23,487 nt of DNA from a virus, in IMG/VR virus record IMGVR_UViG_3300025131_000444, positions 1 to 23,487 of that record. The stretch is one strand, 5' to 3'. How positions within the stretch are numbered: the stretch's first letter is position 1; every line of letters starts with the position of its first letter. Below, piece after piece: positions 1-17,321 of this stretch. The notes below the pieces were generated by a model. The model had not been told where the DNA came from, did no database searches, and saw only the letters and a program-made list of their open reading frames with translations. The translations under genes and the position numbers were made by a program.

Positions 1-1468
1 CAGAGAAAATAGGCTCAATGCCTGAACTAACCCCGTGGAGCATAGAGATAGTACCGCAAGGAGGGATAGTAAGCATAACAGCATTTCTGATCCCGTATCG
101 TTTGATAAGCATTCTAATACGAGCGGGTAAAGTTTTTGCATAATCTTCATTTAAAAATTGTTTGTATTCGAATTCTGGGAATGGGCTCTTGTCCCTTGCG
201 AGATAAACAGATTGCTTGTACGATTCATCTCGTATAGTAGTGAACAATCGGTCTAAGAACTCAAGGCACTTTTCACTACCGTACTTAATCCCCAGTTTAA
301 TGAGCATATAATGTAGACCTGTTACGCCTAGCCCAATCCTACGAGATCTTTCTCCAACCCTCCTGCATGTGTCCGTAGGAAACTTATTAATAGTAAGTAC
401 ATTATCTAAGAATCGAACACCTGTGCGAACCGTTCTTGCAAGACGCTTCCAATCCACATCAGTCCCATCATCAAGTACCATATTAGAAAGATTAACATTG
501 CCGAGGCAACAGTTCCCATAAGAGGGTAATGAAATCTCTCCACAAGGATTCGTTGCATCCAGCTTTTCAAAGTACGAAACATTGGTGTATCTATTAGCTA
601 AGTCGATATTATATATGCCAGGATCGCCCGACTCTACAGAATTTTTCCAAATTATATTCCATAAATCTCTAGCTTTTATATCATTTTTACAAAGAACCTC
701 AAAAGTATCCTTCCAATCTTTTTTGTGAAAGTTCTCTGCTCGTCTAAGAACATCCTCTTCATCCATACCTACAACACTAACAACCTCTTCACCATTACGA
801 ACTAGATCATAAGAGTGATACTCTTTGTTATTAAAAGAAAAGTACCAATCTTCCTCCAATTCTACAGCCTCAAGAAACCTGTCGGTAATGGCAACAGAGA
901 TGTTGAAATTGTTAAGCTCCCCCTTATCCAGTTTAACATGAAGAAATTCCATGAGGTCTGGGTGGGTTACATTAAGGATACCCATGAGAGCAGTTCTACG
1001 GTTCTTTCCTGCTCGTACATGTTCCCCAACCTCATTAATCATTTTTAGGACGGAGACTGATCCTGGGGCTGAGTGATGAACGCTCCCTATGTGGTCTCCT
1101 TTCGGACGAATCTTTGAAACATTAAATCCGACACCTCCACCCGCACAGGAGATTCGGTACATATCCTGGACGGTCTTCCCGATAGAATCCACACTATCCT
1201 CTGGAATAATGACATAGCAATTAAGCAGGTTATGATGGCCCCTATTGCGCCCAGCCCCATAAATAATCCTACCACCTGGGATAAAGTCCCCTGACCCGAC
1301 TGATTCATAGAAGTATTTTTCAATTTTCTCTTTATCCTCATCTCTTTCTGCGGAAGCAACAATCCTAGCAATAACTTTAGATCGTTCAGCCCAAGTCTTC
1401 TCCCCTGGGTAAGCGTATCGTGAATCAAAAATTTCCTGTCCCATATCATCTAGTTTTGCTAATGTCAT
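1..1468 (-). CDS. nrdJ: Class II (B12-dependent) ribonucleotide reductase, C-terminus cut by window edge
   Basis: Reduces ribonucleotides to deoxyribonucleotides for phage DNA synthesis. The reading frame is open from the ATG at 1468 to base 1, giving 489 residues with the C-terminus missing. Visible motifs are GAGRNRGHHNLLNCYVI (first redox Cys84), AGGGVGFN near 109-116, the active-site stretch NPCGEISLP (Asn307, Cys309, Glu311), CCLGNVNLSN at 320-329 and the phosphate-binding loop PPCGTIS at 469-475. The NPCGE form and the lack of an N-terminal ATP cone favour the adenosylcobalamin-dependent class II enzyme over class I NrdA, whose motif is NLCLE. It starts 2 bases after the gp46 stop, so it is probably the distal gene of the same transcript. 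An RNR of this kind would need host cobalamin. Family is confident; the class is an inference from motifs. Confidence 0.88.
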   Translation of the reverse strand, partial: MTLAKLDDMGQEIFDSRYAYPGEKTWAERSKVIARIVASAERDEDKEKIEKYFYESVGSGDFIPGGRIIYGAGRNRGHHNLLNCYVIIPEDSVDSIGKTVQDMYRISCAGGGVGFNVSKIRPKGDHIGSVHHSAPGSVSVLKMINEVGEHVRAGKNRRTALMGILNVTHPDLMEFLHVKLDKGELNNFNISVAITDRFLEAVELEEDWYFSFNNKEYHSYDLVRNGEEVVSVVGMDEEDVLRRAENFHKKDWKDTFEVLCKNDIKARDLWNIIWKNSVESGDPGIYNIDLANRYTNVSYFEKLDATNPCGEISLPSYGNCCLGNVNLSNMVLDDGTDVDWKRLARTVRTGVRFLDNVLTINKFPTDTCRRVGERSRRIGLGVTGLHYMLIKLGIKYGSEKCLEFLDRLFTTIRDESYKQSVYLARDKSPFPEFEYKQFLNEDYAKTLPARIRMLIKRYGIRNAVMLTIPPCGTISMLHGVSSGIEPIFS

Positions 1469-1470
1469 AA

Positions 1471-3057
1471 TTATTTTCCTGTTATTTTAGAGATTCCTTT
1501 GTTTTTTATAATAGTAAGAGTGCGTACATTGTCCATTAAAGATTTAAGATAATTATTATGAGTAATTACGAACAAACTCTTATCTTTCTTGAGTTCTGAT
1601 AATAATATATAGAGACCATCAAGACCATCTTGATCTAGATTCTCAGCAACTTCATCGAAAAACATTAAGTTACTGTTATCGTTATGTGAAATGGTCAACA
1701 GTTGTTGAAGACCAAGCATTACTGCTATGCCAATTTTTCTTTTCTCTCCTCCTGACAAGGAGATATAACTAATTTCTTGCCCATTATGCAATACTTTTTC
1801 ACGGAGTTCTTCGTCAAACTCTACAAAGAATTTTCCTTTGGAGAGATGAGATAAGTAAAAATTTACTTTACCATTAAAATAGGTGAGAATATTTCTAATG
1901 ACATACTTAACTAGACCAGATTCAGAAAAAGCCTTCTCCCAAAATCTCATTATCTCATACTTATTATTATGTTCTTGCTTTACATCATGAGCATCCTGAA
2001 TTTTTTGCTTTGTTTCTTCTCTGAGGGTAGCAAAAGTTTCTGCTTCTTTTTTAAGCTGATTGTATTCTATTATTTTGTAATACTCCGCAGAGGTGATAGG
2101 AAGTTCCCTAAACTCAGACTTAATTTTTTCTTTAGAAGTATTATATTCATTAAGTTGATCACTGCACTCCTGAATATTTAGTTGCAACCGTCTCGGATGA
2201 AAAGGAAGATCAACCACCTGACCACATCTCTCGCACATCTCTTGCTTAGTGGGGTTCTGTAATCTTGTGGTTAAGTATTCTATCCTCTCTTCAAGAGCAT
2301 CAATTTCTTTATTAATTCCTGCTATTTGCCAGTCTAAAGCATCATTATCTCTCTCTGCTTTTACTACATCCTCTAATGATAGTGCTAGAGTTTCCTCCGT
2401 ATATTTTCCTTCAACAGACTCTCTTAGTTTTTTAATACTATTGAACTTCTTATCAAAAGACTCTAAACTCTTTTTGTGTTCGTCAAGGATGGCAGTTTGT
2501 TGTTTGATTACCTGAGAATACTTAGATTTCAAATGTTTCACAGAATCTCTCAAAGAGAATAAACTGTCTAGGTTTAAGAAATTCTTAATTATACTGCGCT
2601 TATCTTCTGGGGTAGCACTAATAAATTCTATATTATTTTGTTGTCCGAATACAGTAGAGGCTAAGAAAACCTTATAGTTTGTACGCAGGTACTCTTCTAT
2701 AAACCTTTGCGTGTTGAGAGCATTATCCTGGGTCTTCTCTTCTTCCCCTATAAAAAATCTAAGATAAGTGGGCTTTTTTCCTCTTTCAATTACAATATTG
2801 CCATTGATAGTAAGTCTAACACTACATTCTTTTTTAGAATACAGGTTAATTAGGGCTGCTTCTGTGGATTTTCTAATAGTCTTACCAAACAAACCCCATA
2901 CAACTGCTTCAACTAATACACTTTTTCCTGCTCCATTAGATCCCCCAGTATCTTTATTCTTTCCTTCAATTAATACTAGCCCCTTAAACTTGTTAAAATT
3001 TAAAGAGACTTTCTTAATAGAATAGAAATTTTTAATTTCTATCTTGTTGATTTTCAT
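1471..3057 (-). CDS. gp46: Recombination exonuclease ATPase subunit, gp46/SbcC/Rad50-like
   Basis: A 528-residue ABC-type ATPase that pairs with gp47 (the next gene upstream) to resect DNA ends for recombination-dependent replication. Walker A is GSNGAGKS at 39-46, the ABC signature LSGGEKR at 434-440, Walker B NLMFFDE at 463-469, the D-loop ENLDQDG follows, and the switch histidine is His500 in FVITH. Between the halves lies a coiled coil of roughly residues 165-380 with a CERC zinc hook (Cys275, Cys278), as in the Rad50 family. Length is close to T4 gp46 (about 560). The ATG lies 26 bp inside the end of gp47, with no clear ribosome-binding site, which suggests translational coupling. Confidence 0.95.
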   Translation of the reverse strand: MKINKIEIKNFYSIKKVSLNFNKFKGLVLIEGKNKDTGGSNGAGKSVLVEAVVWGLFGKTIRKSTEAALINLYSKKECSVRLTINGNIVIERGKKPTYLRFFIGEEEKTQDNALNTQRFIEEYLRTNYKVFLASTVFGQQNNIEFISATPEDKRSIIKNFLNLDSLFSLRDSVKHLKSKYSQVIKQQTAILDEHKKSLESFDKKFNSIKKLRESVEGKYTEETLALSLEDVVKAERDNDALDWQIAGINKEIDALEERIEYLTTRLQNPTKQEMCERCGQVVDLPFHPRRLQLNIQECSDQLNEYNTSKEKIKSEFRELPITSAEYYKIIEYNQLKKEAETFATLREETKQKIQDAHDVKQEHNNKYEIMRFWEKAFSESGLVKYVIRNILTYFNGKVNFYLSHLSKGKFFVEFDEELREKVLHNGQEISYISLSGGEKRKIGIAVMLGLQQLLTISHNDNSNLMFFDEVAENLDQDGLDGLYILLSELKKDKSLFVITHNNYLKSLMDNVRTLTIIKNKGISKITGK

Positions 3058-4042
3058 GAATTAGTTTTAAGCCACTCAGAAGAGTGTCTTTTCCTATAGT
3101 AGTAGTGCTAGAATTAATATATTCTTCAATAAGAGAATCGTTAATGTCTGTAACTGGGTTTATAGAATCTATGACCACCTCATCCGAGGTATCTACCAAG
3201 GGCTTGTATTTAATTTCTACATACCCAGCACTCAATTTATTTATTAACTCCGTAATATTATTCTGATCCTCGTTAACTGTATCAATATTAATTCTAAGTA
3301 GTGTAAAATACCTGCCATCATTAATCCAATCCAAATTCTCCTCCACCATATCATAATCTACCACAAGATGGCGGGGGCCAAATTCTATTGGAAAGGTTTC
3401 CAGTCTGTCATCTTCGATGATTCCGTAGAAGCTTTCTTTTTTGTACTCTGAGAAGTTGGTGGTGTAAGGGGTTCCAAGGAGTGTAATATTTTTGCTCCTA
3501 CTGTATTGGTGAATATGCCCAAGAACAGTAGTATTGTTAAAATCAGCAGGAGTGAGAAAAAAATCGTTGTCCCCAGCAGAATTAAGGGAGCCATAATAAC
3601 CAAAGTGCCCGAATACAGCATAACCAGTTGGGACTTTAACCAAAGCATCTTTAATTTTTGTTTCATCTTCATAGTGCGGAATATATACCCGTCTAGACGC
3701 ATCATCAATCAATATATGGGTGATAATCGTCACATTTTTCGATTCAAAGAGACTTAAGGCAGTTACCCCATCATCGGCCTTGGTCTCACTATCATGATTA
3801 CCTCTAAGGATAAAAACATTACTTTTTTCAGATATATAATCAACAACCTCTTTGAGAGCTAAAAGAACCCTGGGGTAAGGCTTCCTATGCATCATCAAAT
3901 CTCCCAAGAAAATAACATCATCAATTGGGCCTGATTTTAAGGCATCATTATAAATATCAATGGTGGTCCCCCTCTGAGCATTTAAAAGCCCATAGGGTTT
4001 GTTATCAAAATGCAGATCGCCTATTACTAATGTTCTTACCAT
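3032..4042 (-). CDS. gp47: Recombination exonuclease nuclease subunit, gp47/SbcD/Mre11-like
   Basis: A 336-residue metallophosphoesterase that is the nuclease partner of gp46. All the canonical metal-binding motifs are visible in order: GDLHFDN (Asp9, His11), FLGDLMMHRK (Asp48), RGNHDSE (Asn82, His83), FGHFGYYG (His146) and LGHIHQY (His176, His178). Length matches T4 gp47 (339). Its ATG overlaps the end of the upstream zinc-ribbon gene by 7 bp (the sequence AAATGGTAA holds both the start and the stop), and its own end overlaps the gp46 start by 26 bp, so the three genes look co-translated. Confidence 0.95.
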   Translation of the reverse strand: MVRTLVIGDLHFDNKPYGLLNAQRGTTIDIYNDALKSGPIDDVIFLGDLMMHRKPYPRVLLALKEVVDYISEKSNVFILRGNHDSETKADDGVTALSLFESKNVTIITHILIDDASRRVYIPHYEDETKIKDALVKVPTGYAVFGHFGYYGSLNSAGDNDFFLTPADFNNTTVLGHIHQYSRSKNITLLGTPYTTNFSEYKKESFYGIIEDDRLETFPIEFGPRHLVVDYDMVEENLDWINDGRYFTLLRINIDTVNEDQNNITELINKLSAGYVEIKYKPLVDTSDEVVIDSINPVTDINDSLIEEYINSSTTTIGKDTLLSGLKLIHENQQDRN

Positions 4043-4158
4043 TTATCCAATGGGCACTTTTCAGTATCCAATTTAGTTTTAATCTTCAAAAGGCACCCAC
4101 AAATCTTACAAACATTTAGCAATTTGTTATACCCATAACATTTTTTACAAATAATCAT
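4036..4158 (-). CDS. Small zinc-ribbon-like protein with CPLDKW end
   Basis: About 40 residues from the ATG at 4158, preceded by CAAGAGCGA as a weak ribosome-binding site. It holds two CxxC pairs (CKKC near the start and CKICGC in the middle) and ends in EKCPLDKW. That layout of C-x2-C, C-x2-CGC, K-x-K-L and CPxxKW recalls small phage proteins of unknown function that I know as a general pattern. An in-frame ATG at 4260 would add 34 residues and overlap the polymerase gene by 44 bp. I prefer the shorter start because the extra segment mostly overlaps another gene and has only a badly spaced GGAG. Probably zinc-binding; role unknown. Confidence 0.6.
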   Translation of the reverse strand: MIICKKCYGYNKLLNVCKICGCLLKIKTKLDTEKCPLDKW

Positions 4159-4216
4159 TCGCTCTTGAGCAGTGGAAGCAATTTTACAGCCGCCCCTACA
4201 CCAACAAAAAATAGCT

Positions 4217-5302
4217 CTACAAAATCGGTATACCTTTGTCAAAACGAATCTCTTTTCCATCTCCAAATGATCTACCAACCTCTGCATCAATGGCAAGGGG
4301 TACATCAAAGTGAATGTTAAATATCTCCTTGATCGTCGGGTAGTTCACCATCTCATCATAGAGGATCTCAAGCACATTCTCAACCTCATTGTCTGGACAA
4401 ACTACCTCCACGCTATCATGAACTGTTGCAACGGGTCTAGCTGACAAGTTACTAGCTTTAAACCTTCTAGAGATACCCAACAAAGAAGTAAGCAGGATGT
4501 CAGATGCAGTACTCTGGATAGTAAAGTTAAGTCCTTGCCTAAGAGCGCGATTAACAACTGTCTTATTCCTAGAGCCAACATCAGGCAAATTCCTACGCCG
4601 ACCGAATATAGTATAAGCATAACCATTTGTTCTAATAAAATCATTCACAAACTCCATGTATTCAAATACCGCAGGGTACACATTCTTGTAGTTATCTATT
4701 ATTCTCTCTGCCCTTCTAAGTGGAATTCCCATAGTTTCACTTAAATTAAACGGTCCTCCACCATATACAATCAAGAAGGAGACTGTCTTGGCAATCTGTC
4801 TCTCAGTTTTACTAATGTTTTGTTTATTGAATAGTAACTTAGCAGTATAGGTATGTAGATCTGCTCCTTCATTAAAAGCGTTCTGCATATTACCGTCCTT
4901 AGCAACATGAGCAAGCACACGAAGCTCCATTGCGGCATAGTCTACAGCAATGAAAGACTGCTGGGGAGGAGCGGTAAAAATACTACGAATATTATCTTCA
5001 GTAGTACGGGGCAGAGTATGGAATGATACTCCCATAGCTTTCTTAGCATTATAAGAAGCACAAGACAATCGCCCCGTAGAAGTCCCATCAAATCTGAAGT
5101 CTACGAAGATCTTATTTTTTCCATTATACTCAATAGCTTTCCTAGTTCCCTGAATATAAGTCTTAGCTAGTTTCTCCGACTTACGGAGACCCAAGAGCCC
5201 TTTCAGGAATTTCTTAGAGTCTAGTAATTCTTCCGTAGACTTGGAGGCTACTACCCTCTTGCTAATTTGCTTACCTTCATCTCTGTGTTTCCATTTACTC
5301 AC
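4217..5302 (-). CDS. polA: Family A DNA polymerase, part 3: palm and fingers catalytic domain
   Basis: This 361-residue chain carries the polymerase active site. Motif A is AVDYAAMELRVLAH (Asp121, Glu126). The O-helix motif B, RQIAKTVSFLIVYGGG, keeps Arg168, Lys172, Phe176 and Tyr180-Gly181 in family A spacing. Motif C is ATVHDSVEV (His295, Asp296). The usual Glu after the motif C Asp is Ser297 here. The first 60 residues (KFLKGLLGLRKSEKLAKTYIQG) match the thumb that normally continues from the segment encoded by the preceding gene. The start is GTG, with GAGGA 11 bases upstream, and overlaps the end of part 2 by 8 bp in another frame. It must work with parts 1 and 2 to rebuild a whole enzyme, unless the frame break is a sequence error. 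Confidence 0.92.
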   Translation of the reverse strand: MSKWKHRDEGKQISKRVVASKSTEELLDSKKFLKGLLGLRKSEKLAKTYIQGTRKAIEYNGKNKIFVDFRFDGTSTGRLSCASYNAKKAMGVSFHTLPRTTEDNIRSIFTAPPQQSFIAVDYAAMELRVLAHVAKDGNMQNAFNEGADLHTYTAKLLFNKQNISKTERQIAKTVSFLIVYGGGPFNLSETMGIPLRRAERIIDNYKNVYPAVFEYMEFVNDFIRTNGYAYTIFGRRRNLPDVGSRNKTVVNRALRQGLNFTIQSTASDILLTSLLGISRRFKASNLSARPVATVHDSVEVVCPDNEVENVLEILYDEMVNYPTIKEIFNIHFDVPLAIDAEVGRSFGDGKEIRFDKGIPIL

Positions 5303-5774
5303 GGGACTTTAATTCCTCATCAATGTGTTCTAACAAAAGCTTCAGCGTAGGGGCAGACACAGAAGGACTTCCTTTAGCTGTCCTGTCAGGAGGGTACAAT
5401 TCTAAACTTCCTTCTCTGGTATATAGTATCTCAATCAAATCATGGTTGGAGGAGAGGTTGTCTGTCTTCTCAATGCCCTTACAAGAGTAAAGGGAGTCCT
5501 CTTCATTCATGTTCTTAGTAGTGAGTTCTCTCCCCACGCTCTCTAATGTTGATGTGTCCACATCCAATCCATTGTACTCCATCTCTGAAAAAGTCTCAAG
5601 AGAAGGCATTACAACTTTCTCTATTAGTTTGAACATCGGTTCTCCATCTAGCTTTTCGCAAATTAGATTGAATAGCTTTAAAGTGAAGTAGGAATCGAGA
5701 GCGTTCCCCTCACAACAGTCTGAAAGGGGCATGTTTGCCCAATCAAATTTTTTAGGATTGTCAATGGTCAGCAT
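5295..5774 (-). CDS. polA: Family A DNA polymerase, part 2: exonuclease motif III and thumb
   Basis: A 159-residue piece that fills the gap between parts 1 and 3. Residues 10-35 (FDWANMPLSDCCEGNALDSY and following FTLKLF) match the exonuclease III region of DEDD 3'-5' exonucleases, with Asp27 as the likely metal ligand. The Tyr or His usually found four residues before this Asp is Gly23. Residues 45-75 (LIEKVVMPSL, EMEYNGLDVD) match the start of the polymerase domain, and NLSSNHDLIEIL near 107-118 the thumb. It stops at TAA, where part 3 takes over one frame away. There is no obvious ribosome-binding site before the ATG; a minus-strand TATTAT box 14 bp upstream could be a promoter. Confidence 0.82.
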   Translation of the reverse strand: MLTIDNPKKFDWANMPLSDCCEGNALDSYFTLKLFNLICEKLDGEPMFKLIEKVVMPSLETFSEMEYNGLDVDTSTLESVGRELTTKNMNEEDSLYSCKGIEKTDNLSSNHDLIEILYTREGSLELYPPDRTAKGSPSVSAPTLKLLLEHIDEELKSRE

Positions 5775-5785
5775 AGCTATATAAT
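5758..5785 (+). promoter_or_regulatory. Sigma-70-type promoter for the inverted 92-residue gene
   Basis: TTGTCA at 5758-5763 and TATAAT at 5780-5785 are separated by 16 bp, close to the bacterial housekeeping consensus with a perfect -10. Transcription would begin near 5791, followed by AGAGG as ribosome-binding site and the ATG at 5804. The promoter overlaps the first codons of polymerase part 2 on the other strand. Confidence 0.6.
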
Positions 5786-5803
5786 AGACGAGTAGAGGTT
5801 ATT

Positions 5804-6082
5804 ATGAATGATAAAGATTACGAATTGATCGGTGAGTCCATTTGGGACACTTATAGAAACATGAGTTATATTTTAGCTGAAGGAATTTTGGGAAGGCTGA
5901 AGCGTAAAGTATTTGGAAGTGGAAAAGGAGCCGATACCGCTAAGAAATCAACTGCTCTTGAAGATACCCTCTCCAAACAAGGTAACCCTAAACCTAAAAA
6001 AACTAAAAAAGAAACGCCAGAAGAAAGAGCAGCCCGAATAGCTAGAGGCTTATCGGCTGCAGCGCAGTACGGTGACGCTTAA
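5804..6082 (+). CDS. Small basic protein with prohead-protease-like site, inserted inverted in the polymerase locus
   Basis: A 92-residue protein on the strand opposite the surrounding polymerase pieces. AGAGG lies 5 bases before the ATG and a good promoter just upstream. Residues 1-26 are mixed and end in SYILAE; the rest (GILGRLKRKVFG, then KPKKTKK and an Arg/Ala-rich tail) is strongly basic. The junction LAE followed by G matches the consensus cut site of the T4 gp21 prohead protease. Its layout (short leader, cut site, basic body) resembles T4 internal proteins, so I infer a packaged DNA-associated protein; there is no direct homology I can name. The stop codon overlaps that of polymerase part 1 in a shared TTAA. 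No HNH, GIY-YIG or LAGLIDADG motif is present, so a homing endonuclease is not supported. Confidence 0.7.
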   Translation: MNDKDYELIGESIWDTYRNMSYILAEGILGRLKRKVFGSGKGADTAKKSTALEDTLSKQGNPKPKKTKKETPEERAARIARGLSAAAQYGDA

Positions 6083-7101
6083 AGATCTTCTAGTTCAGAA
6101 GAGAAGTAAATCTTAACTAGATCCATCAAGCTCTTCGGAACATTCTCGTCAATAAAGTGGTGCATAATCTTAGTGTCCCATACATTCTTCGTATAGATTC
6201 CGTAGTTAATCAGGAACTTTAGATCGAATTTAGCATTGTGAAAGACCTTCCTGTTCTTAGGGTTCTCTAAGATACGCCGAAGAAGAACCCAAACCCTTGC
6301 GTAATCTGGTTCTCCCTTTCTAAAGGGACTATCTTTATGATCCAGAGGAAGTACCCAAGTATTATCTTGAGAAGCGAACGCTATAGTTTGGATGCTATCT
6401 GTAAGGAAGTTTAGTCCTGTAGTCTCAATGTCTATTGCTAAAGTCTCCTCACTCTCCTGCAAATTAGTTGCAAGCTCCTCCACATCTTCTATACGCATTA
6501 GCGTTTGGTAGGTAAAGTCCCCTTCAGCCTTTTTGCCAAGTACATATTTTTCATATGCATTTTGGATGTCCTTTTGGAATAGGAAACGGTGGCGAGGCTC
6601 CTTAATACAGGCATAAGGATGAAAAATAGGCACAACGATACAGCTATGCCCTCCAGTAGTGATATATTCATAAGATTTTCCTCTCTTGTTTGTGATGCCA
6701 CTCTTCTTGATCAGCATCTTCATGGCTAAGTTCCCACAAGGGAACACTAGTTTAGGCTTTACCTTATCAATGGTAGCCTCTAAGTGTACGCGACATATTT
6801 TCATATTGTCTGGGGTCATGTCTGCTTCTCTAGTATCAGGACATTTTACAGACGCTGCACATATAAAAGGCTCTTTATATGCTTCCTTTATTAGATTTAG
6901 TTCGGCCTTCAAGAATGGAAAGGTTCCTCCAAACTTATATTTAAGAGAGTCCGATAAAAAGAGTGCTGGACATTCATCCAACTGCTCATAATCCATGATA
7001 GAATTACAAGGTTTATTCTTAGAAAGGATAGTACACCCTTCACAAAGAGGATTCTCTCCCTTAAGTTTATGATCGGAATATAAATTATCTAAATCAAACA
7101 T
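6079..7101 (-). CDS. polA: Family A DNA polymerase, part 1: UDG-like domain and 3'-5' exonuclease motifs I and II
   Basis: A 340-residue chain. Residues 1-190 look like a family 4 uracil-DNA glycosylase: Cys20-x2-Cys23 and Cys87-x15-Cys103 have the spacing of that family's iron-sulfur ligands, and IFHPY at 159-163 recalls its second motif. The usual catalytic GEAPG loop is replaced by SDSLK, so glycosylase activity is doubtful. Residues 221-300 hold exonuclease motif I (AIDIETTGL, Asp224 and Glu226) and motif II (HNAKFDLKFL, Asn289 and Asp293). Motif III is missing and is found in part 2. Family 4 UDGs are known to resemble the N-terminus of phage SPO1 DNA polymerase, so parts 1-3 together rebuild an SPO1-type enzyme. 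The chain ends in the linker between motifs II and III. Confidence 0.88.
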   Translation of the reverse strand: MFDLDNLYSDHKLKGENPLCEGCTILSKNKPCNSIMDYEQLDECPALFLSDSLKYKFGGTFPFLKAELNLIKEAYKEPFICAASVKCPDTREADMTPDNMKICRVHLEATIDKVKPKLVFPCGNLAMKMLIKKSGITNKRGKSYEYITTGGHSCIVVPIFHPYACIKEPRHRFLFQKDIQNAYEKYVLGKKAEGDFTYQTLMRIEDVEELATNLQESEETLAIDIETTGLNFLTDSIQTIAFASQDNTWVLPLDHKDSPFRKGEPDYARVWVLLRRILENPKNRKVFHNAKFDLKFLINYGIYTKNVWDTKIMHHFIDENVPKSLMDLVKIYFSSELEDL

Positions 7102-7114
7102 ACTATGATAGGGT

Positions 7115-7465
7115 ATGAAAAATCATTACATCAACAACAAAGAATTTGAGCGTATCATTATATCATACCAGCAAGACCCAGAAAATTACGAGGAAGAGCT
7201 AGTTTCTTTATTTGATCTTCTGATTACGAACATAATAGAATCATTTAGATTCAAAGTTGACCCTGATGATGCGAAACAAGATTGCTTCGCTCTAGTCCTA
7301 AAGACGGTAAAGAATTTTAAACCTCGAAAAGGCACAGCATTTAATTACTTTACTACCATTGTAGTAAATAATCTAAAATTACTTTACACTAGAGAAAAGA
7401 AATACAAACAAAAGATCGAAAATTATATTGAAAAGTATAAAAACGATAACAATCAATCTTTATAG
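7115..7465 (+). CDS. gp55: Late-transcription sigma factor, gp55-like, short form
   Basis: A 116-residue protein. The start HYINNKEFERII resembles the T4 gp55 N-terminus (NYVNNKELLQAI), and the middle (DAKQDCFALVLKTVKNF, then AFNYFTTIVVNNLKLLY) looks like the core-binding and -10-recognition part of region 2 of sigma-70-like factors. It is shorter than T4 gp55 (185 residues), and the C-terminal portion that contacts the sliding clamp in T4 is not evident. It would direct host RNA polymerase to TATAAATA-type late promoters, and one perfect copy lies at 19052-19059. It is divergent from polymerase part 1 and its 3' end overlaps the next, convergent gene by 13 bp. The ribosome-binding site is weak (TAGGGT). 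Confidence 0.75.
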   Translation: MKNHYINNKEFERIIISYQQDPENYEEELVSLFDLLITNIIESFRFKVDPDDAKQDCFALVLKTVKNFKPRKGTAFNYFTTIVVNNLKLLYTREKKYKQKIENYIEKYKNDNNQSL

Positions 7466-8229: not shown

Positions 8230-8742
8230 ATGGAAGACAATTATGATTTTTCTAAGCTAAAAAAGAAAAAGAAGGTTAACAGTAGAGCTAAGGGCAGCAC
8301 CTTTGAACGGCAGATAGCCAAGCTACTTAATAATAGATTCAACACCACAGAATTTTCAAGAACTCCTGGATCTGGTGCATTCGCCACTACGCATACTCTA
8401 CCTGACTACTTAAAAATATATGGAGATCTAATAACACCTATTAAATTTAAATATTGTATAGAGTGTAAAAAAGGATACAATAAGGAAAACTTATATAGTC
8501 TATATAATTATAGTTCAGACACCTGGAAATTTATAGATCAATGTCAAAAAGATTCGGACAAGTGCGACAAGATTCCGATGGTCATCTTCAAGCAGGATAG
8601 ACACCCTACACTAGCTATAGTACCCTCAAATATCCCCTATCAAGCCACTAACTTCATAGAAATATATAAAGAGGGGAAAGTATATAGAGTATATTTATTT
8701 GATGATCTACTTAAAGAAGCTGACTCATGCTGGTTGGAGTAA
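8230..8742 (+). CDS. PD-(D/E)XK nuclease, possibly Holliday-junction-resolvase-like
   Basis: A 170-residue protein with the nuclease core motifs in order: KGSTFERQIAKLL (Glu26), FSRTPGSGA near 42-50, YGDLI (Asp66) and CIECKKGY (Glu78, Lys80). A basic N-terminus (KKKKK) may help DNA contact. The pattern of an early helix Glu, RTPGSG, GD and ExK is typical of Hjc/RecU-like resolvases and related endonucleases; which substrate it cuts cannot be told. TGAGGA about 9 bases before the ATG is a good ribosome-binding site. It is transcribed against its neighbours, and its last 32 bp overlap the end of the 982-residue gene tail to tail. It could process recombination intermediates made by gp46/gp47. 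Confidence 0.75.
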   Translation: MEDNYDFSKLKKKKKVNSRAKGSTFERQIAKLLNNRFNTTEFSRTPGSGAFATTHTLPDYLKIYGDLITPIKFKYCIECKKGYNKENLYSLYNYSSDTWKFIDQCQKDSDKCDKIPMVIFKQDRHPTLAIVPSNIPYQATNFIEIYKEGKVYRVYLFDDLLKEADSCWLE

Positions 8743-11659
8743 GTAATCTCTCTAATAATCTTTGTTGTCCTGCTAAGAACTGAAATAAAAGACCTTCCTC
8801 TTTCACAATAATTTCCCCTCTTTTATCTGTTACGAAATTTCTCTTTGGGGATGAAACATATTCATCTGCGAATTTAGCTTGAGATCTAGTTTGGCGTTGC
8901 TGACTCTCAGTTCCTTTAGTTCCTGACCAAGTACCTTCTTGGCTCCAAGTCATTACTTTTTGCCCATCTACTATATAAGTGGCTGTATCGCCTTCTATAC
9001 TTATCTCTAATCTAGGATTCCCATCTTTATCTATAGCTCCTCGCGCATCTGCTATAGCTCTCATAGGCTCATTTTGAGACCAGCCAATAACTTTACCATC
9101 ATTGGTCCCCTTAATTTGAGCCATCTCAGATTCATTGTACCCACATATTAGTAAATTTCTAATAAGGTAGTTCTCAACCATATCTTTTTTATTTGGATCA
9201 TTTAAATCTCTTTTTAATGCCCGAAATCTAGCTTCTCTTTCCATGCCTTCTTGAACTCTTTCTTGGACTACTCTATCAGAATACTTTCTACTCTTCCCAT
9301 TAATAAAAAATAGCTTAGCAAATTTACTTTTCATCAGTGCGGCCCAGCTTAATTTTCCAGTAATAATTTCACTAGCCATTTTTAAGTGTTGTTCAGGCGT
9401 AGCAATTTTGACTTTTCCGTTTTTATCTACATAGGTTGTAGTTTCTGCAAACCCAGCAGTTGCATGAGAAACTTCCGTTTCTAATTCATCATTATACTGT
9501 AACATTGCTGCAAAATCTGAATCTTCAACTCCATTTTCATCTACTTCAGGACCGAATCCTTGTACTTCTCTTATTCCAGTAAAGAATCCTGGGGTAGGGT
9601 CAGTAGAATCTTGTCTGAAGTATCCATCTCGTACAGCCTCAGTATTAATTTCCCCTGCTTTAGTATTGCCAGCCTTCTCCATCCTCTTTTGACCGAAGGG
9701 CATAAGGTAGACTTGTTGCCCTGGTTTTATATTTAAATCATCCAATCTCTTTTGTACCGAAATTTTAGATTTTGGTGTAGCATTATTAATGATATCGTCG
9801 TAAGTTGTAGGTTGTACCGAAGATCGACTATCTTTGGCAGCCACAGCAGCCTGATCTGGATCTATAAATAAAAGAGCATTATCTGCCCTTGCTCCAGTAC
9901 GAGGCTGTAGTCCTAGGTGGACTGTACCTACTACTCCCTCAATACTTCCTAGCCATTGATCCATAGCCTTTGCTTCCGACAGTATCCAAATTTTTAGTTT
10001 TTCTCTGCTTGTAGCTATACCATACATCTCAGCAGCTTGTTCTGCATCCATGTAAGATTGCATATCTACTGATCCTCCTCGCTCTAAGGAATTATTCATT
10101 ATCTGTTCAAGCATAGGAGTGTCCTTTTCAAGAATAGTTTCTTGAATAAACTCTGTTAGCTCTTGATGGATCTTTTGGTATTTTGTATCTTTTGTATCTC
10201 CGTTTGCAGCATCATAGGCTTCTCTCATTCTTCGAAGTAAAATAGATATTTGGGGGACTCTCTCATAAAGAGTACCTTTGATAGCATTCTTATCATTCTG
10301 TCCAATAGATAGATTTAATACTTGTCTAAGAGGACTAACCTCATCTCCTTTTTCCCCACTAGCAATGTCTGGGGTCCAGTCCGTGTCTGGGCACTCTGAT
10401 CTTAATTTTTCTAAAGCAAATCTCTGAAGGGGGTTTGGAGTAATAACTACTCCCTCAGAAGGAATGCTAGTATCCGCTCCCATCTCCCCAAAGAATATTA
10501 ATTTTTCCTTACTTCCTCTTCCATGTAATCCTACCCTAGTTAGAATTGTCTCACACCTATCTGCCTCTGCCTCCGAAGCAGGAGCTAAAAAACTTAGAAG
10601 TTGTGAATTAGCTTCTACCGCTTCCGATCTTAATCCAGCACTTATTTTACACTTACCTGCTGTATCTATTTTTCCTTTATCATCTAGACAAAAAGTACTA
10701 TCCCCATTAGCAAGTTTATATTCTAAACTTCCAACTGTAGATCCTGCAATATAACTGATTGGATTTTTACAAATATTATCCCATTGTGCTTTTAAATTAT
10801 CATTCTCGGAAGAATTTATTTGGTCTCTACAAAAACTGTCCACAAATTTCATTTGTTGTAAGTACTCTGATTCTTCAGTATGAGATACAGCGGGGTTATT
10901 AGTTTTTAGAGATGCATCATATTCTTCTTGTGCTATTCCTTGTGCTGCGAGGAGTGTTTGAGTATGGTTTAAGGTAGCATTCTTCTCCCCCCTCCCTTCT
11001 ACTTGTACAGCAATAGATTCTCCATCTACCATCCAACCATCGTCTTCTATTTCCTTTACTCTATTAAGTCTCCAAGCCCCCCCAATTTCTGCTGCGGCTT
11101 TTGCCTCAAAGTCTGCGATGGCTTGTTGTTCTTCTCTCTTTCTTTTAGTGGCCTCATCCTCACTATCTGGATCACTACCCCCTTCTCCATCTCCTGATAG
11201 CTTTTCAATAAAATCCTGCTTTCGTCCTGCTGCTTTCTGTACATCTTTATCGTATTTTGCTTGGGCAGTTTCAGTAACCTTTCCAGCCGCAGTAAGTTTT
11301 GGGCTACCTCCCATTTGTACAGTCCCCTTCCCGCTTTTCTCTCCACCGTATAAATTTACTACAACTACATCCCCTTGGGGGTTTCTATAAATAGACATCT
11401 CCGTAGGCTTTCCATTTACACCCATTACTGGAACAGCGTCTGCTGTGGCTGCATTAATCGCATTATTTGCTATAGTCGCCCCATCCTCAAAGGCAAGATC
11501 ACTTGGGGGTGGAGGTGTCTCCTCTTGTGTCTCCTTCTTCTTGGCTTTTGGTTTAGCTTTTGGTTTAGCTTTAGCTTCAGCCTCACTAATATATTCCAGC
11601 TTAAAAGTCCTCTTTTTAAGCTTATTGTAGCTTTCTAATAACTCATTAAAATAGTCCAT
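8711..11659 (-). CDS. Large virion-associated protein candidate, 982 residues, unknown function
   Basis: I do not recognise this protein. The first 26 residues (MDYFNELLESYNKLKKRTFK, then LEYISE) are followed by AEAKAKPKAKPKAKKK, a lysine-alanine-proline repeat. ISE followed by A matches the T4 prohead-protease consensus, so the N-terminus may be a capsid-targeting peptide removed at maturation. Residues 130-200 are charged and probably helical; no membrane segment, nuclease or peptidase motif stands out. The C-terminus is hydrophobic and helical (FQFLAGQQRLLERLL). It follows the tail genes after a strong terminator, with candidate promoter boxes in the 80-bp gap; AGGG about 12 bases before the ATG is a poor ribosome-binding site. 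A large internal or ejected protein is my best guess. Confidence 0.75.
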   Translation of the reverse strand: MDYFNELLESYNKLKKRTFKLEYISEAEAKAKPKAKPKAKKKETQEETPPPPSDLAFEDGATIANNAINAATADAVPVMGVNGKPTEMSIYRNPQGDVVVVNLYGGEKSGKGTVQMGGSPKLTAAGKVTETAQAKYDKDVQKAAGRKQDFIEKLSGDGEGGSDPDSEDEATKRKREEQQAIADFEAKAAAEIGGAWRLNRVKEIEDDGWMVDGESIAVQVEGRGEKNATLNHTQTLLAAQGIAQEEYDASLKTNNPAVSHTEESEYLQQMKFVDSFCRDQINSSENDNLKAQWDNICKNPISYIAGSTVGSLEYKLANGDSTFCLDDKGKIDTAGKCKISAGLRSEAVEANSQLLSFLAPASEAEADRCETILTRVGLHGRGSKEKLIFFGEMGADTSIPSEGVVITPNPLQRFALEKLRSECPDTDWTPDIASGEKGDEVSPLRQVLNLSIGQNDKNAIKGTLYERVPQISILLRRMREAYDAANGDTKDTKYQKIHQELTEFIQETILEKDTPMLEQIMNNSLERGGSVDMQSYMDAEQAAEMYGIATSREKLKIWILSEAKAMDQWLGSIEGVVGTVHLGLQPRTGARADNALLFIDPDQAAVAAKDSRSSVQPTTYDDIINNATPKSKISVQKRLDDLNIKPGQQVYLMPFGQKRMEKAGNTKAGEINTEAVRDGYFRQDSTDPTPGFFTGIREVQGFGPEVDENGVEDSDFAAMLQYNDELETEVSHATAGFAETTTYVDKNGKVKIATPEQHLKMASEIITGKLSWAALMKSKFAKLFFINGKSRKYSDRVVQERVQEGMEREARFRALKRDLNDPNKKDMVENYLIRNLLICGYNESEMAQIKGTNDGKVIGWSQNEPMRAIADARGAIDKDGNPRLEISIEGDTATYIVDGQKVMTWSQEGTWSGTKGTESQQRQTRSQAKFADEYVSSPKRNFVTDKRGEIIVKEEGLLFQFLAGQQRLLERLLTPTSMSQLL
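11541..11582 (-). repeat. 12-bp coding repeat for the Ala-Lys-Pro-Lys tract
   Basis: Near-perfect tandem copies, read on the plus strand as GGTTTAGCTTTT, encode AKAKPKAKPKAKK at residues 28-41 of the 982-residue protein. Slippage could change its length. It directly follows the predicted protease site. Confidence 0.75.
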
Positions 11660-11739: not shown

Positions 11740-12330
11740 TCAGGGGTTAGAGTAGTTGAACTGATTCATGAAATCGTACTTGAAGGTCACATCTATAGTG
11801 TGGAAATCGTTGGTTGCATAGTTAAATTCAGATGCTGCCCACTTAGTAGGCCAAACGCCATAAACTTCTACAGTAGAGTGAGGCACCATAGTATTATCAA
11901 GCATAACAATTTCAGCCTTTGCAGCCTTAAAGGTGTTTCCTAACCCCCCTCCAGGCTGAGAACTCTTACTCATTTCACCAGTAATGGGATCGTAGGTATG
12001 CTTAAAGTATCTCCATAGATCACTAGCAGTTTCTCTAAGATACAAGTTATCAAAAGTAACTACTAAGTCTCCAGGAGTAACCTTGCCAGGATAGTGGATC
12101 TTGTCATTAACTCTATCAATTACGATGGGCTCTGAAGCCATCTCCAACCCAGTAATCTTTTTAGCAGCAAGGGTGAGGTCTGTTTCTCCAGTTACATCAG
12201 AAGGTAATCCCAAAAAGTGAATTTCAAACTGATATGTTCTAACTGAATCTAAATCAGTAGAAATTAGGGGTAGACCCTGACCAGGAGTGAAGTTTCTCCC
12301 GTAATAATTTTTATAATATGATTGCGCCAT
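11740..12330 (-). CDS. gp19: Tail tube protein, gp19-like
   Basis: A 196-residue protein that would stack as rings to form the inner tube of the contractile tail. Supporting features are RTYQFEIHFLGLP near residues 31-43, the ITGLEMASEPIVIDR segment, a KIHYPGKVTPGDLVVTFDNL stretch typical of T4-like tube subunits, and a C-terminal KYDFMNQFNYSNP. Slightly longer than T4 gp19 (163). It begins 10 bp after the sheath gene stops, with AGGAAATTAATT as ribosome-binding site, which is the usual sheath-tube gene order. A terminator follows. Confidence 0.88.
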   Translation of the reverse strand: MAQSYYKNYYGRNFTPGQGLPLISTDLDSVRTYQFEIHFLGLPSDVTGETDLTLAAKKITGLEMASEPIVIDRVNDKIHYPGKVTPGDLVVTFDNLYLRETASDLWRYFKHTYDPITGEMSKSSQPGGGLGNTFKAAKAEIVMLDNTMVPHSTVEVYGVWPTKWAASEFNYATNDFHTIDVTFKYDFMNQFNYSNP

Positions 12331-12340
12331 AATTAATTTC

Positions 12341-14539
12341 CTATATGTTTCCTAAATTAGCCGACTGATTAGTAAGATTAATTTCGAAGATAATCATTTC
12401 TGCCGTCTTAGTAGGCTTGACAATAACTTTACACCAAAGTTCGTTTCTATCAATTCTTACTGGAGTATTTACTGTCGCATCACAAACAACACGGAATTCT
12501 GTTATCCCGCGCCGTCTACGAATGTCGTCCATGAAAGGATTGATCAAAGCTTCTATTTGAGACCAAGTAAATTCATCGTTGGGCTCAAACACAAATCTTC
12601 TTGCACTAGAGACGATAACTTTACGGATGTAAATCATCAATCTACGAATGTTAATTCTGTCTAGAGCAGTGGGGTTCCTTTGTGCAGTACGCTGCCCAAA
12701 GATAGTTATACCTTGTTGTGGGAAGGACACGATGGGATTAACCACATTGCCTCCACTATACATGGTATCTCTATCGCCCTGGTTCAGTTTGACTTCTACC
12801 TCCGAAGGCTTAGTGAGTCTACCTCTACGGAATCCCGCAGGAGCAAACCAGCTATCCGAAACACCGTCAGTATATGCCATTTGTCTGGCCCCAAAGATTG
12901 CAGGATCTAACCATCTATCCTTAGCATCAAACACGCTGTAGACCTTAACATGGGGGAAGTAGATCGCTGCATAAGAGCTAGTAATTGCTGAAGTTCTAGA
13001 CCCTGCTGTGCTAGAAGACTTTCCATTAGTCCAATCAATAGCATCTTGTACAGTTCCAATTCCATAGGGGGGAGAAACCAAAGCCATAAAGTTTTGAGTA
13101 CTCTCTGCCAAAGTTATCAGGTTATTCTGAACACTTTCCGTGTAAATACCTGGGACAGCTACGATTCCAATGTTAAGAACATCATCATCAAGTGATTGCA
13201 TTCCCGTCTTGGGATCAACAGAAGAATCTCCAATAAGGGCTGTGGTATTGGCAGCAGTACTTCCTGTTCCATTATCACCACCAGTCATACTCTCACCAGT
13301 ATTTTGAACTAACTTATTCCACCTACCACCATTTGTTGCAATAGTAGTATTTGCAGTAGCAGTACCTGCTCCTGTTGGATTGTCGTTTGGAAGTAAGAAC
13401 TGATCCGTCATCTGGAAACTGGTCGTTCCCATCAGGGTATTAGTTGCAACATCAAAATTAGTTAATTCCGCAGCCGTAGCGTCAGCATCATCTTTGAATA
13501 AGTTACCCTTAATAGTATCAGATTTAAGGTTAGTTTCTCCAGTGTTAATTACATCTTCAATAAAGGCACCTGATCCAACAAAGCTCGTTTTAAATGTTTC
13601 ATCAGCCACACCATCTTGATTAACTACAACACTAAAGTTTTGACTTCCTAGACCATTAACTGTAATGGAATTTCCACTAGTATCTCCACCAGTAGTAGTG
13701 CCTCCATTATAACCAGCCCCCTCATACAAGGAAACTATACTATATGCGGCAGAGTTCGTTCCAGTTTTCTCAAAAGAGGCACCGTAAGCCCTACAAGCAG
13801 AAGCTAAAACCCCTGCTCCAAGCTCTCCACTAGCACCATAACTTGCGCCAGTCGATCCTGCTGCACTTACAGGGCACAATGCTGAAGCTCCTTTAGATTC
13901 ATCAAAAGAAGTGCCACTACAAGCGGAAACCCCTATGTAAGCACCAGAACCAGCAAAGGCTCCTACGATAGCTCCAGACAATCCCAATCCCGCGTAGCCA
14001 TCTCCTCCATCAAAAACGCCCACTTTATCTGCGTCTAATCCTCCACCAACAATCTTTCTAATAGCTTCCGCTTGACCAGAAACTGCGGTACTTGTGGGGA
14101 TGGTAAAGTCTTTTCCTGGTGCGGTAAATTGGGCAGTACCTGCATTATCATATACTTGAATCCTAAGAGTTAAAGCAGCATCAAGTCCCCATCCTTTAGT
14201 TGCATCAGAGCCTCCTGAAACAATTATGGAGGGGCAAGTTCCCATAGTCATTGTAGCAGAGGCATCGGCAGCGGTAGAGGTTACAGCACGAATGAAATAC
14301 AGCGTGTTCGTTTGCTCTAAAATTTCTAATGCGCCTTCCAATGCTTGGCCTGGAATAGACTCATAAGGCTTACCGAAGGTACGAACCAAGCTGTTTTGGT
14401 TAGTAATAAGAGTAGCTTTGTTCGTTGGTCCTTTGCTGGCAAAGCCAACCAAACCAACGATTGAAGTATTAATTGACGGAGTATAATCCGAAATATCTTT
14501 TTCTATGGTGTAGACACCTGGGCTTACATAATTAGGCAT
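12341..14539 (-). CDS. gp18: Contractile tail sheath protein, gp18-like
   Basis: A 732-residue sheath subunit. The N-terminus (YVSPGVYTIEKDISDYTPSI, then SIVGLVGFASKGP) is diagnostic of T4-type sheaths, as is the C-terminal domain (INPFMDDIRRRRGITEFRVV, DRNELWCKVIVKPTKTAEMI). The conserved handle domain starts near residue 470 (LVSPPYGIGTVQDAIDW). Between roughly 100 and 460 lies a long low-complexity Gly/Ser/Thr/Ala-rich region that is poorly conserved in the family and probably faces outward; it makes this protein longer than T4 gp18 (659). AGGAG lies 8 bases before the ATG. The tube gene follows immediately. Confidence 0.95.
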   Translation of the reverse strand: MPNYVSPGVYTIEKDISDYTPSINTSIVGLVGFASKGPTNKATLITNQNSLVRTFGKPYESIPGQALEGALEILEQTNTLYFIRAVTSTAADASATMTMGTCPSIIVSGGSDATKGWGLDAALTLRIQVYDNAGTAQFTAPGKDFTIPTSTAVSGQAEAIRKIVGGGLDADKVGVFDGGDGYAGLGLSGAIVGAFAGSGAYIGVSACSGTSFDESKGASALCPVSAAGSTGASYGASGELGAGVLASACRAYGASFEKTGTNSAAYSIVSLYEGAGYNGGTTTGGDTSGNSITVNGLGSQNFSVVVNQDGVADETFKTSFVGSGAFIEDVINTGETNLKSDTIKGNLFKDDADATAAELTNFDVATNTLMGTTSFQMTDQFLLPNDNPTGAGTATANTTIATNGGRWNKLVQNTGESMTGGDNGTGSTAANTTALIGDSSVDPKTGMQSLDDDVLNIGIVAVPGIYTESVQNNLITLAESTQNFMALVSPPYGIGTVQDAIDWTNGKSSSTAGSRTSAITSSYAAIYFPHVKVYSVFDAKDRWLDPAIFGARQMAYTDGVSDSWFAPAGFRRGRLTKPSEVEVKLNQGDRDTMYSGGNVVNPIVSFPQQGITIFGQRTAQRNPTALDRINIRRLMIYIRKVIVSSARRFVFEPNDEFTWSQIEALINPFMDDIRRRRGITEFRVVCDATVNTPVRIDRNELWCKVIVKPTKTAEMIIFEINLTNQSANLGNI

Positions 14540-14550
14540 AATTTATTCTC

Positions 14551-14727
14551 CTAAGCGTTTGAAATCTTAAATATTCTTCGTCTGTGAAGAGTTTGAATTT
14601 GTTCTGTGATATAGTGATCAGGCACTACAATACTTTCTCCTGGCTGCATCCACTTTTCTCTATTACCCTTTTCCGTACCAAAATAAATGGTGAATGCCTG
14701 AAGGCTATCATTTTTAACTAGTTTCAT
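14551..14727 (-). CDS. Small conserved-looking protein upstream of the sheath gene
   Basis: A 58-residue protein, MKLVKNDSLQAFTIYFG at the start and HRRRIFKISNA at the end, with a WMQPGESIVVP stretch in the middle. AAGGAG stands 8 bases before the ATG, a strong ribosome-binding site, and the stop is 11 bp before the sheath ATG. The product is small, basic at its C-terminus and without membrane segments or cysteines. I do not know its function; the position suggests a tail or connector accessory. Its PGE-centred layout is loosely like that of the 71-residue protein at 18847-19062. Confidence 0.75.
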   Translation of the reverse strand: MKLVKNDSLQAFTIYFGTEKGNREKWMQPGESIVVPDHYITEQIQTLHRRRIFKISNA

Positions 14728-14793
14728 ATCTTTATCTCCTTATTATCTACCCAACGAGTTCACTTTTTTTGAGAACTTTTTTTATACCGTGCT
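14728..14793 (-). promoter_or_regulatory. Candidate late promoter (7/8 match) before the 58-residue and sheath genes
   Basis: This 66-bp gap holds TATAAAAA on the minus strand (14779-14786), one base from TATAAATA, then an A-rich stretch with a weak inverted repeat (GTTCTC and GTGAAC around a run of seven A). It may start a separate sheath-tube transcript; the match is not strong. Confidence 0.3.
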
Positions 14794-15615
14794 TTAAGTG
14801 CAGCCATTTGCATCGTAGATAGCACCGACCTCAATCACAGGAACCGAATTCTTTTCATCAGTTTCTTTTACTTCCTTATCTATATCTGCATGCATAGTAA
14901 ATCCACGGGGGTGGGAGGATGTTACAATCGACCAGTGAGGATTGAGAATTCCTAGATCATGTGGGGGAACTATTCCTGGCTTATCAGTCTGGGGATCACT
15001 AGGTAATACTAGCGTTCCAGTAACTTGCGCTCCCGCAGGTATAACTCCTTGCCGTACTTCACCTCTCAAAATAGGCCACTTTCCGTCGTATTTTCCATCA
15101 TCACCCCTAACCCAGTAAAAAGTCTGACCTATATTTGTAAACCAATCCATTTCCCATAACCCAATATTAAACGGTCCCACAGGTACACTACTATTGTTAG
15201 TTACTGTATAGGAAAAGGTAACATCTCCCGTGTACCACCAACAGTTCTGATTACTACCCGATCCTGGAGGGTTCTTTGTATTTGTGTAATACGGACCACC
15301 ACCACCAATTGCGTCAAGGGTAAGATCAAGATCAGGCGCAGGATCCCCACCATCACCACATAAAACATCTTGGCTTTCATTCTCAGTAGTCTCGGCTGCG
15401 TGAGAACCATCAGGCCCGTGAGTATCAATTAAATCCCCAGGTAAAGAAACTTTGTATCCCTCTACAAAAACACTATCGCTTCCTCCATTAATCAGCCCAC
15501 CCGCTGTATCTATCCCTGCCCTGGTTATTCCCTTACCATTTGCTTTTACTGTAGTAGATCCAGTATTGGCATCTCCACAACTAGCAAGATCCCCTTTTCG
15601 TTCAACTCCTGGCAT
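14794..15615 (-). CDS. PAAR-like tail spike tip protein with C-terminal beta domain
   Basis: A 273-residue protein. Residues 1-88 resemble PAAR-repeat proteins that sharpen the tip of a contractile-tail spike (T4 gp5.4): MPGVERKGDLASCGD, a middle Gly-rich turn, SDSVFVEGYKVSLPGDLI and DTHGPDGSHAA. Candidate metal ligands are Cys13, His66, His72 and Cys86. T4 gp5.4 has only about 97 residues; here a second domain (roughly 100-273) follows, with FSYTVTNNSSVPVGPFNIGL typical of CARDB/Ig-like beta sandwiches. The extra domain might bind the host surface or a cargo. The gene starts 4 bp after gp15 ends, within the tail cluster. Confidence 0.65.
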   Translation of the reverse strand: MPGVERKGDLASCGDANTGSTTVKANGKGITRAGIDTAGGLINGGSDSVFVEGYKVSLPGDLIDTHGPDGSHAAETTENESQDVLCGDGGDPAPDLDLTLDAIGGGGPYYTNTKNPPGSGSNQNCWWYTGDVTFSYTVTNNSSVPVGPFNIGLWEMDWFTNIGQTFYWVRGDDGKYDGKWPILRGEVRQGVIPAGAQVTGTLVLPSDPQTDKPGIVPPHDLGILNPHWSIVTSSHPRGFTMHADIDKEVKETDEKNSVPVIEVGAIYDANGCT

Positions 15616-15619
15616 TACA

Positions 15620-16750
15620 TTAACATCCTATCAAGAATTTTTCTATTTTCCCACTAGAAGTTACTAGAAATTTAGGGCTGGGAATATATGCTTCAACAAC
15701 AATGTTTATTGTTTTCTGTATAATTCTATCCTCTTTATCTTCAGCAGTAAGCTTACCTGAATCCTCCTCAGTATCAATGTAAGCTTTCATTAGAGTAGAA
15801 TACTTTGTAGGAACTTCCATATCAGGATTGAATTTAAGTCTTACTTGCTCTAAAATTTGGTCCATGTCAGACATGTATTTAGTCCAAATATTTAATTGGT
15901 ACATAACATCTACTGCTCTCGGAGCAAAACTAAGGACCCTAAAAGCTCTATTCTTCTCTTCGTCCCAGTACTTCTCTTGTACCAGAACATTCTCTGCTCT
16001 TCTTCTATTTTTATTATTATTAGAAATAGTTTGAGATATAGAAACAATAGGGAGAATAATGTTATTATCCTGTTTTAATTTAGCTATAGTTCTTTCCGCA
16101 TTTGCATGAACACACTTAATTTTTATAAAATTCTCTTCTGAACTTATGTAACCTAACTCACTAAAGGAGGCTATCATGCTCCTAAGTAATTCTTTATATA
16201 TAAAGGAGATATTATTTTCAGCTTGTGTCATTCGATACATTTTTTTTCTAATATCTCCCTCTCTAGTATTCCATTGCTCACTCCTACTGGTTATAGCAGA
16301 TAAGGTAGCGTCTTCTGAGATAATGACATTATCTGAATCTAAAGTAAATGATAACGATCCTCCATAAGAGGGGCCATATACTGTAATAGGATTTCCATAT
16401 GCTACATTGAATCCTGACTGTGTAGCCGATACTGTGCCTACTGGAAAATTATAAAAGCCACCCCCTGAAGCAATAAAAGAAGGCTCCCCAGAAACACGCA
16501 TTGTCCAAGTAGACTCTATGAATGGATCATTAACCATTTTTCCCTGGAAAGATATAAGGGAATCTTGGCCTACTGTTTTTAAATAGTCTCCTTGATAATT
16601 TCCCGCCAAATCATACTGAGAAATTCCGATAGCAGTTAATAATTTAGTTGTAGTAGTGGTAAAGCCTACTGCCCCTGATTCCATAGGGTTGGTGGACGGG
16701 GGAGAATAAGGTACAGAAATTTGTTTCCATACTGAAATCTTAGAACTCAT
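15620..16750 (-). CDS. gp15: Tail sheath stabiliser / tail completion protein, gp15-like
   Basis: A 376-residue protein. The C-terminal half matches the T4 gp15 pattern: LPIVSISQTISNNNKNRRR near 231-249, a VMYQLNIWTKYMSDMDQILE segment near 286-305, then LKFNPDMEV and a final domain with RIIQKTINIVVEAYIPSP. This protein caps the tail tube and joins it to the neck. The first about 150 residues are beta-rich and not typical of gp15 (T4 gp15 has 272), so this is an extended version. It overlaps the gp14-like gene by 11 bp, consistent with coupled translation. gp15 identity rests on pattern and order rather than on a catalytic motif. Confidence 0.7.
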   Translation of the reverse strand: MSSKISVWKQISVPYSPPSTNPMESGAVGFTTTTTKLLTAIGISQYDLAGNYQGDYLKTVGQDSLISFQGKMVNDPFIESTWTMRVSGEPSFIASGGGFYNFPVGTVSATQSGFNVAYGNPITVYGPSYGGSLSFTLDSDNVIISEDATLSAITSRSEQWNTREGDIRKKMYRMTQAENNISFIYKELLRSMIASFSELGYISSEENFIKIKCVHANAERTIAKLKQDNNIILPIVSISQTISNNNKNRRRAENVLVQEKYWDEEKNRAFRVLSFAPRAVDVMYQLNIWTKYMSDMDQILEQVRLKFNPDMEVPTKYSTLMKAYIDTEEDSGKLTAEDKEDRIIQKTINIVVEAYIPSPKFLVTSSGKIEKFLIGC

Positions 16751-17318: not shown

Positions 17319-17321
17319 TTA

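Follow-up and report, generated by a model that had tools for sequence, protein, structure and literature searches.

Replicative DNA polymerases divided among separate polypeptides are known from several phages. In the T4-type Aeromonas phages 25 and 44RR the replicative polymerase is carried on separate chains, gp43A and gp43B, and the 43A and 43B products of phage 25 co-purify and are polymerase-active (PMC2988022). The marine OM43 phages MEP401 and MEP402 divide a family A polymerase over two genes that flank a small open reading frame (ORF) (PMC10580990), and the core of the split DNA polymerase III alpha of jumbo phages lies in separate proteins that are thought to reassemble (PMC7824862). 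Such cases have so far been described as two-part and connected with an intron, a homing endonuclease or a small inserted ORF. We describe here a DNA polymerase encoded by three minus-strand genes, p1, p2 and p3, in a 23.5 kb virus record from IMG/VR (IMGVR_UViG_3300025131_000444, positions 1 to 23,487; hereafter the window). Two fixed breaks, one of them through an active site, are kept clade-wide, and in about half of the members the joints carry no such element. We propose, at a probability of roughly 0.7, that a SPO1-type family A replicative polymerase is permanently encoded as three polypeptides, which assemble non-covalently into the fold of the single-chain enzyme.

The single-chain enzymes that the locus resembles are SPO1 gp31 and those of the Herelleviridae and PHROG 17 (SPO1-type family A polymerase), in which a uracil-DNA glycosylase (UDG)-like domain, an exonuclease domain and a polymerase domain follow one another. 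The same order is found across p1, p2 and p3. The first gene, p1 (6079..7101, 340 aa), carries the UDG-like domain and the N-terminal part of the 3'-5' exonuclease domain, with motifs I and II; p2 (5295..5774, 159 aa) carries the C-terminal part of the exonuclease domain, with motif III, and the ascending thumb helices; and p3 (4217..5302, 361 aa, GTG start) carries the remaining thumb, the palm and the fingers. Pfam searches matched p1 to the UDG-like family PF03167 (E 2.8e-6) and to the exonuclease PF01612 (E 4e-19), the latter match breaking off at position 131 of the 173-position profile, and matched p3 to positions 60-380 of DNA_pol_A PF00476 (E 4e-78). No Pfam match was obtained for p2, which instead matched PHROG 17 (E 4e-5) and, among sequences of solved structures, Klenow 199-293 (E 8e-5); p3 matched Klenow from 292 onward. 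On PHROG 17 the three parts are collinear (p1 520-785, p2 794-928, p3 926-1239). Joined into 860 aa, they can be aligned from one end to the other with phage polymerases of a single chain (tblastn, E ~1e-57 to 1e-63) over up to 97% of the length, and Lysinibacillus phage LysYB1 is among the best whole-length matches (27% identity, 96% cover). A first-pass annotation of the window had proposed these three ORFs, their order and their UDG-like, exonuclease and family A domains, all of which the profile matches bear out. Because p2 lacks a Pfam match it could be mistaken for an unknown protein, and re-annotation of the viruses of the clade is warranted.

The locus differs from each of the systems to which it may be compared. 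SPO1 gp31 and the PHROG 17 enzymes are one chain, possess the tyrosine of exonuclease motif III and lack extra residues at the thumb tip. The gp43A/gp43B enzyme belongs to family B and consists of two chains, and its split is accompanied by an untranslated spacer or by the gene of a seg homing endonuclease. In MEP401 and MEP402 there are two parts, the break lies within the polymerase domain, a UDG-like part is not reported and the authors suspect an intron (PMC10580990). The split jumbo phage enzyme is a family C polymerase in two parts, with a family B polymerase alongside (PMC7824862). The first-pass annotation had also pointed to Rhodothermus phage RM378, which has T4-type morphology and keeps exonuclease and polymerase on separate genes with the exonuclease domain uncut. 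That description is correct, but the parallel fails: the RM378 enzyme is an unrelated family B polymerase (PF03104 on Rm378p024, PF00136 on Rm378p092) encoded by distant genes, and it was rejected as a homologous case. No three-part family A polymerase was found in papers on phage polymerase diversity (PMC11348598, PMC6302109) or in text searches, from whose coverage subscription journals were mostly absent.

Relatives were collected by scanning IMG/VR, which returned 199, 178, 125 or 114 matches depending on the probe, or about 200 contigs of the clade. The 274 loci handled, many of them overlapping, comprise 94 distinct p1/p3 pairs (sequence sets), drawn from numerous metagenomes plus one single-cell genome; 250 loci contain p1 and p2, and 260 contain p2 and p3. 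Residue invariance and Shine-Dalgarno counts were scored on 66 distinct sets. A search of 84,980 species genomes gave one match to the clade, a Prochlorococcus single-cell contig. The carriers form a diverse and abundant clade of far-T4-like marine myoviruses.

One intact frame in related genomes was the outcome that the first-pass annotation had named as contradicting a divided gene. Fused copies, with two parts in one frame, were therefore looked for; there were none among the 250 p1 and p2 loci or the 260 p2 and p3 loci, and identical break points were found throughout. In this the clade departs from the single polypeptide of SPO1-type enzymes. Fused or two-part intermediates were also sought with the divergent members L042 and L054, and these returned the same clade alone. 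The first break lies near E. coli Pol I residue 473/474, between exonuclease motifs II and III, where single-chain relatives are length-variable; the second lies near residues 615-617, at the tip of the thumb, between STSEEVLE and the helix leading toward EYR. Both stay fixed despite sequence differences of up to 55% in p1 and up to 41% in p3, and median dN/dS, the ratio of nonsynonymous to synonymous substitution rates (14-17 usable pairs per part), is 0.095 for p1, 0.037 for p2 and 0.047 for p3. Both cuts are ancient and conserved, and they are maintained under selection. A sequencing or assembly error, or a gene in decay, is hardly tenable as an explanation: a further frameshift in p2 of locus L017 (5590-5957 of L017, 92 aa), which is either an assembly error or a fourth break, is the kind of lesion it would predict, but the same breaks in 94 distinct sets rule out a frameshift or assembly error, and dN/dS well below 1 rules out a pseudogene. 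As in the 43A/43B type of split polymerase, the parts are separate chains and each is conserved.

The joints themselves were inspected in a first pass over 69 loci for p1-p2 spacing and 77 loci for p2-p3 spacing. The C-terminus of p1 falls at the identical residue in nearly all members. In 34 of the 69 loci, those without an insert, the p1 stop codon overlaps the p2 start codon as TAATG or TGATG; the remaining loci have a gap of 184 to 2287 nt filled by unrelated genes, and in the window p1 and p2 are 304 nt apart. The p2 and p3 genes overlap by 8 nt in the window and by 8, 4 or 23 nt in 75/77 loci, and in L054 they are separated by 585 nt. The first-pass annotation held that the parts join without obvious loss. 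Nothing is lost at either joint, but about 40 residues that are absent from every single-chain relative examined are gained between p2 and p3. They comprise a C-terminal extension of p2 of ~12 aa (5298..5333, minus strand) and an N-terminal extension of p3 of ~25-30 aa (5213..5302, minus strand), both recognized by alignment, and they may form the joint.

The translation signals point to p3 being made as a chain of its own. A Shine-Dalgarno-like GAGGA (GAGGAG; 5314..5318, minus strand) stands ahead of the p3 GTG, within the p2 frame. Matches of at least five bases occur at this position in 41/66 sets, compared with 11% at internal ATG/GTG controls, and the two Glu codons that form the signal are GAG in 81/87 cases versus 62% elsewhere in p2, a bias showing that the signal exceeds what protein coding needs. 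Rejoining of the parts into one chain, whether by RNA trans-splicing, by programmed frameshifting or by protein splicing, is highly improbable. Self-splicing introns in the SPO1 and phage K homologues lend this idea some appeal, but those introns lie at GRLSS-P/N and, in phage K, also at HNGK/FD, and the breaks of the clade are elsewhere. No Rfam intron was found in the window or in five related loci, and the overlap of start and stop codons likewise argues against introns. Since the relative frames of p1 and p2 and of p2 and p3 differ among relatives, a conserved frameshift cannot join the parts, and programmed frameshifting was rejected. Inteins were also rejected, as p1 ends and p2 starts exactly at the break with no extra sequence of intein length. 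The 585 nt between p2 and p3 in L054 and the Shine-Dalgarno sequence and start codon that p3 possesses are further evidence against rejoining.

We next consider the active sites. Exonuclease motif I, D224-x-E226 (6424..6432, minus strand), and motif II, D293 in HNAKFD (6223..6225, minus strand), are encoded in p1; the motif III aspartate, D27 in GNALD (5694..5696, minus strand), which aligns with E. coli D501, is encoded in p2. The polymerase motifs A (D121), B (K172, F176, Y180-G181) and C (H295-D296) all lie in p3 (4415..4942, minus strand), with F176 the counterpart of E. coli F762. Every one of these residues is invariant in the 66 sets, and their distribution over the three chains is that given in the first-pass annotation. 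The exonuclease site is thus divided over p1 and p2, complete in its acids and, as judged from the alignment, non-canonical as a DEDDy site. According to the proposed mechanism, p1, p2 and p3 would be translated separately and then associate non-covalently; p1 and p2 would rebuild the exonuclease domain, p2 and p3 would rebuild the thumb, and p3 would bring the palm and fingers. It is probable that the three pieces come together as a single working enzyme; assembly and polymerase activity are expected, and proofreading is expected with less assurance. The comparison of genomes supports this interpretation. How an active site survives when its domain is cut can be examined here in a natural system that has been sampled in depth.

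Nine relatives with contigs of 71-131 kb were checked for other polymerases. All nine carry one DNA_pol_A match and no more, and none yielded a polymerase of family B or C, the contigs not being certified complete. With the acids of the split exonuclease site invariant and no second polymerase detected, it is presumed that the three products have to work together. A host polymerase, or a phage polymerase that escaped recognition, might instead copy the genome and leave the split enzyme to repair only. Contigs that are not certified complete, and the chance that a very divergent polymerase could escape the profiles, leave some room for this explanation, but it is very unlikely given that contigs of up to 130.6 kb show one family A polymerase and none of family B or C, that selection on the parts is strong, and that their genes adjoin gp46/gp47-type recombination and ribonucleotide reductase genes.

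Structure prediction with AlphaFold2, using alignments of 21 sequences each for p1 and p2, gave a mean predicted local distance difference test score (pLDDT) of 77.6 for p1 alone, with confident UDG-like and exonuclease parts. A fold search with this model matched family 4 UDG (4zby/4zbx, E 2e-8 to 7e-8) and the Klenow exonuclease. Residues 316-340 of p1 are conserved and end in a helix at the break, yet their pLDDT is below 50. The model of p2 alone (pLDDT 57; predicted template modelling score, pTM, 0.27) was too poor for a fold search. The low confidence of the p1 C-terminus and of p2 fits, as weak evidence, chains that would need partners.

Several observations weigh against three chains acting as one complete enzyme. 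The low confidence of p2 may stem simply from its shallow 21-sequence alignment. The tyrosine of the motif III signature YxxxD, E. coli Y497, is replaced by glycine (G23 of p2) in 66/66 sets, while the aligned single-chain relatives keep it; all four DEDDy carboxylates are thus present without the tyrosine, and the exonuclease chemistry may be weakened. The first-pass annotation expected proofreading to be reconstituted between two chains. The divided site with its four invariant acids upholds part of that expectation, but with this tyrosine a glycine clade-wide full proofreading is uncertain and cannot be assumed intact. Distance matrices correlate at 0.77 between p1 and p2 and at 0.81 between p2 and p3; the neighbouring sbcD-like gene correlates with p2 at 0.83, which neither value exceeds, and the coevolution signal is therefore not above that of shared descent. 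Finally, L037 and L045 differ from L046/L068/L093 by 26-27% in p1 and by 43-45% in p2, which suggests that p1 has been exchanged between phage lineages and therefore that the p1 chain is to some extent interchangeable.

A related explanation, which we consider unlikely, is that p2 and p3 alone constitute the polymerase and that p1 is separate or loosely bound, with weak or no proofreading and some other role, for example as an iron-sulfur (Fe-S) UDG-like DNA-binding subunit. The clade-wide glycine of motif III agrees with it, as does the frequent separation of p1 from p2 by other genes, which span up to 2.3 kb and lie in some cases on the opposite strand. So do the faster evolution of p1 and its distances, which agree least with those of p3. 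It is opposed by the invariance of all four carboxylates on p1 and p2, by the conserved C-terminal helix of p1 that stops exactly at the break, and by the expectation that a dispensable exonuclease would lose its carboxylates, as has been described for divPolA1 (PMC11348598). Within the three-chain assembly that we favour, it is possible, though doubtful, that the breaks are functional, with the extra thumb-tip helices at the p2/p3 junction aiding docking or processivity and p1 being exchangeable or releasable, so that proofreading could be adjusted. For the engineering of split or switchable polymerases, the breaks also offer naturally occurring cut sites.

The N-terminal domain of p1 has the fold of a family 4 UDG and four cysteines, C20, C23, C87 and C103 (6793..7044, minus strand), spaced like the Fe-S ligands of that family, as seen from conservation and comparison with 4zbx. 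C87 and C103 are present in 66/66 sets and align with cysteines of the Sulfolobus UDG 4zbx; C20 and C23 are present in 64/66, the other two sets being gapped. An Fe-S cluster may therefore be present in the polymerase complex. The catalytic motif of family 4 UDG is GEAPG-x2-E, and the p1 alignment reads FLSDS at that position. Glycosylase activity of p1 is consequently unlikely on sequence grounds.

A T4-type gene set occupies 2-7465 and 11740-20825 of the window, including the major head protein, sheath, tube and gp46/gp47-type genes, and a short gp55-like sigma factor lies at 7115-7465 on the plus strand. A SPO1-type family A polymerase stands here in place of the T4 family B enzyme, so that the polymerase has been exchanged on a backbone of T4 type. 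One clade member, L093/L051 (QCKN01000003.1, 130.6 kb), is part of the Prochlorococcus sp. AG-409-P03 single-cell genome, which hints that the host is a cyanobacterium or that the virus was co-sorted. Neither QCKN01000003.1 nor eight other long contigs gave a psbA/psbD family match.

The spacer between p1 and p2 is a hot spot of insertion, both in the window (5775-6078) and in L017, L018, L020, L022, L031, L037, L045, L052, L054 and L077. In the window it holds orfX (5804..6082, plus strand), which went unmentioned in the first-pass annotation and encodes an antisense basic protein of 92 aa that is not part of the enzyme and is absent where the TAATG overlap occurs. Insertion of orfX was rejected as the cause of the split, since insert-free relatives are already divided; for the same reason the inserts are most likely later arrivals. 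Judged by eye, many of them are antisense small basic proteins sharing an N-terminal leader of ~25 aa that ends in (L/I/V)xE, MNDKDYELIGESIWDTYRNMSYILAE, and resembles the T4 capsid-targeting leaders cleaved by gp21; further inserts resemble a 2-oxoglutarate (2OG) oxygenase or a glycosyltransferase. Elsewhere in the window, a 982-aa protein with no PHROG match (8711-11659, minus strand) begins MDYFNELLESYNKLKKRTFKLEYISE, a leader in the style of the spacer inserts, which suggests that this protein is packaged within the capsid.

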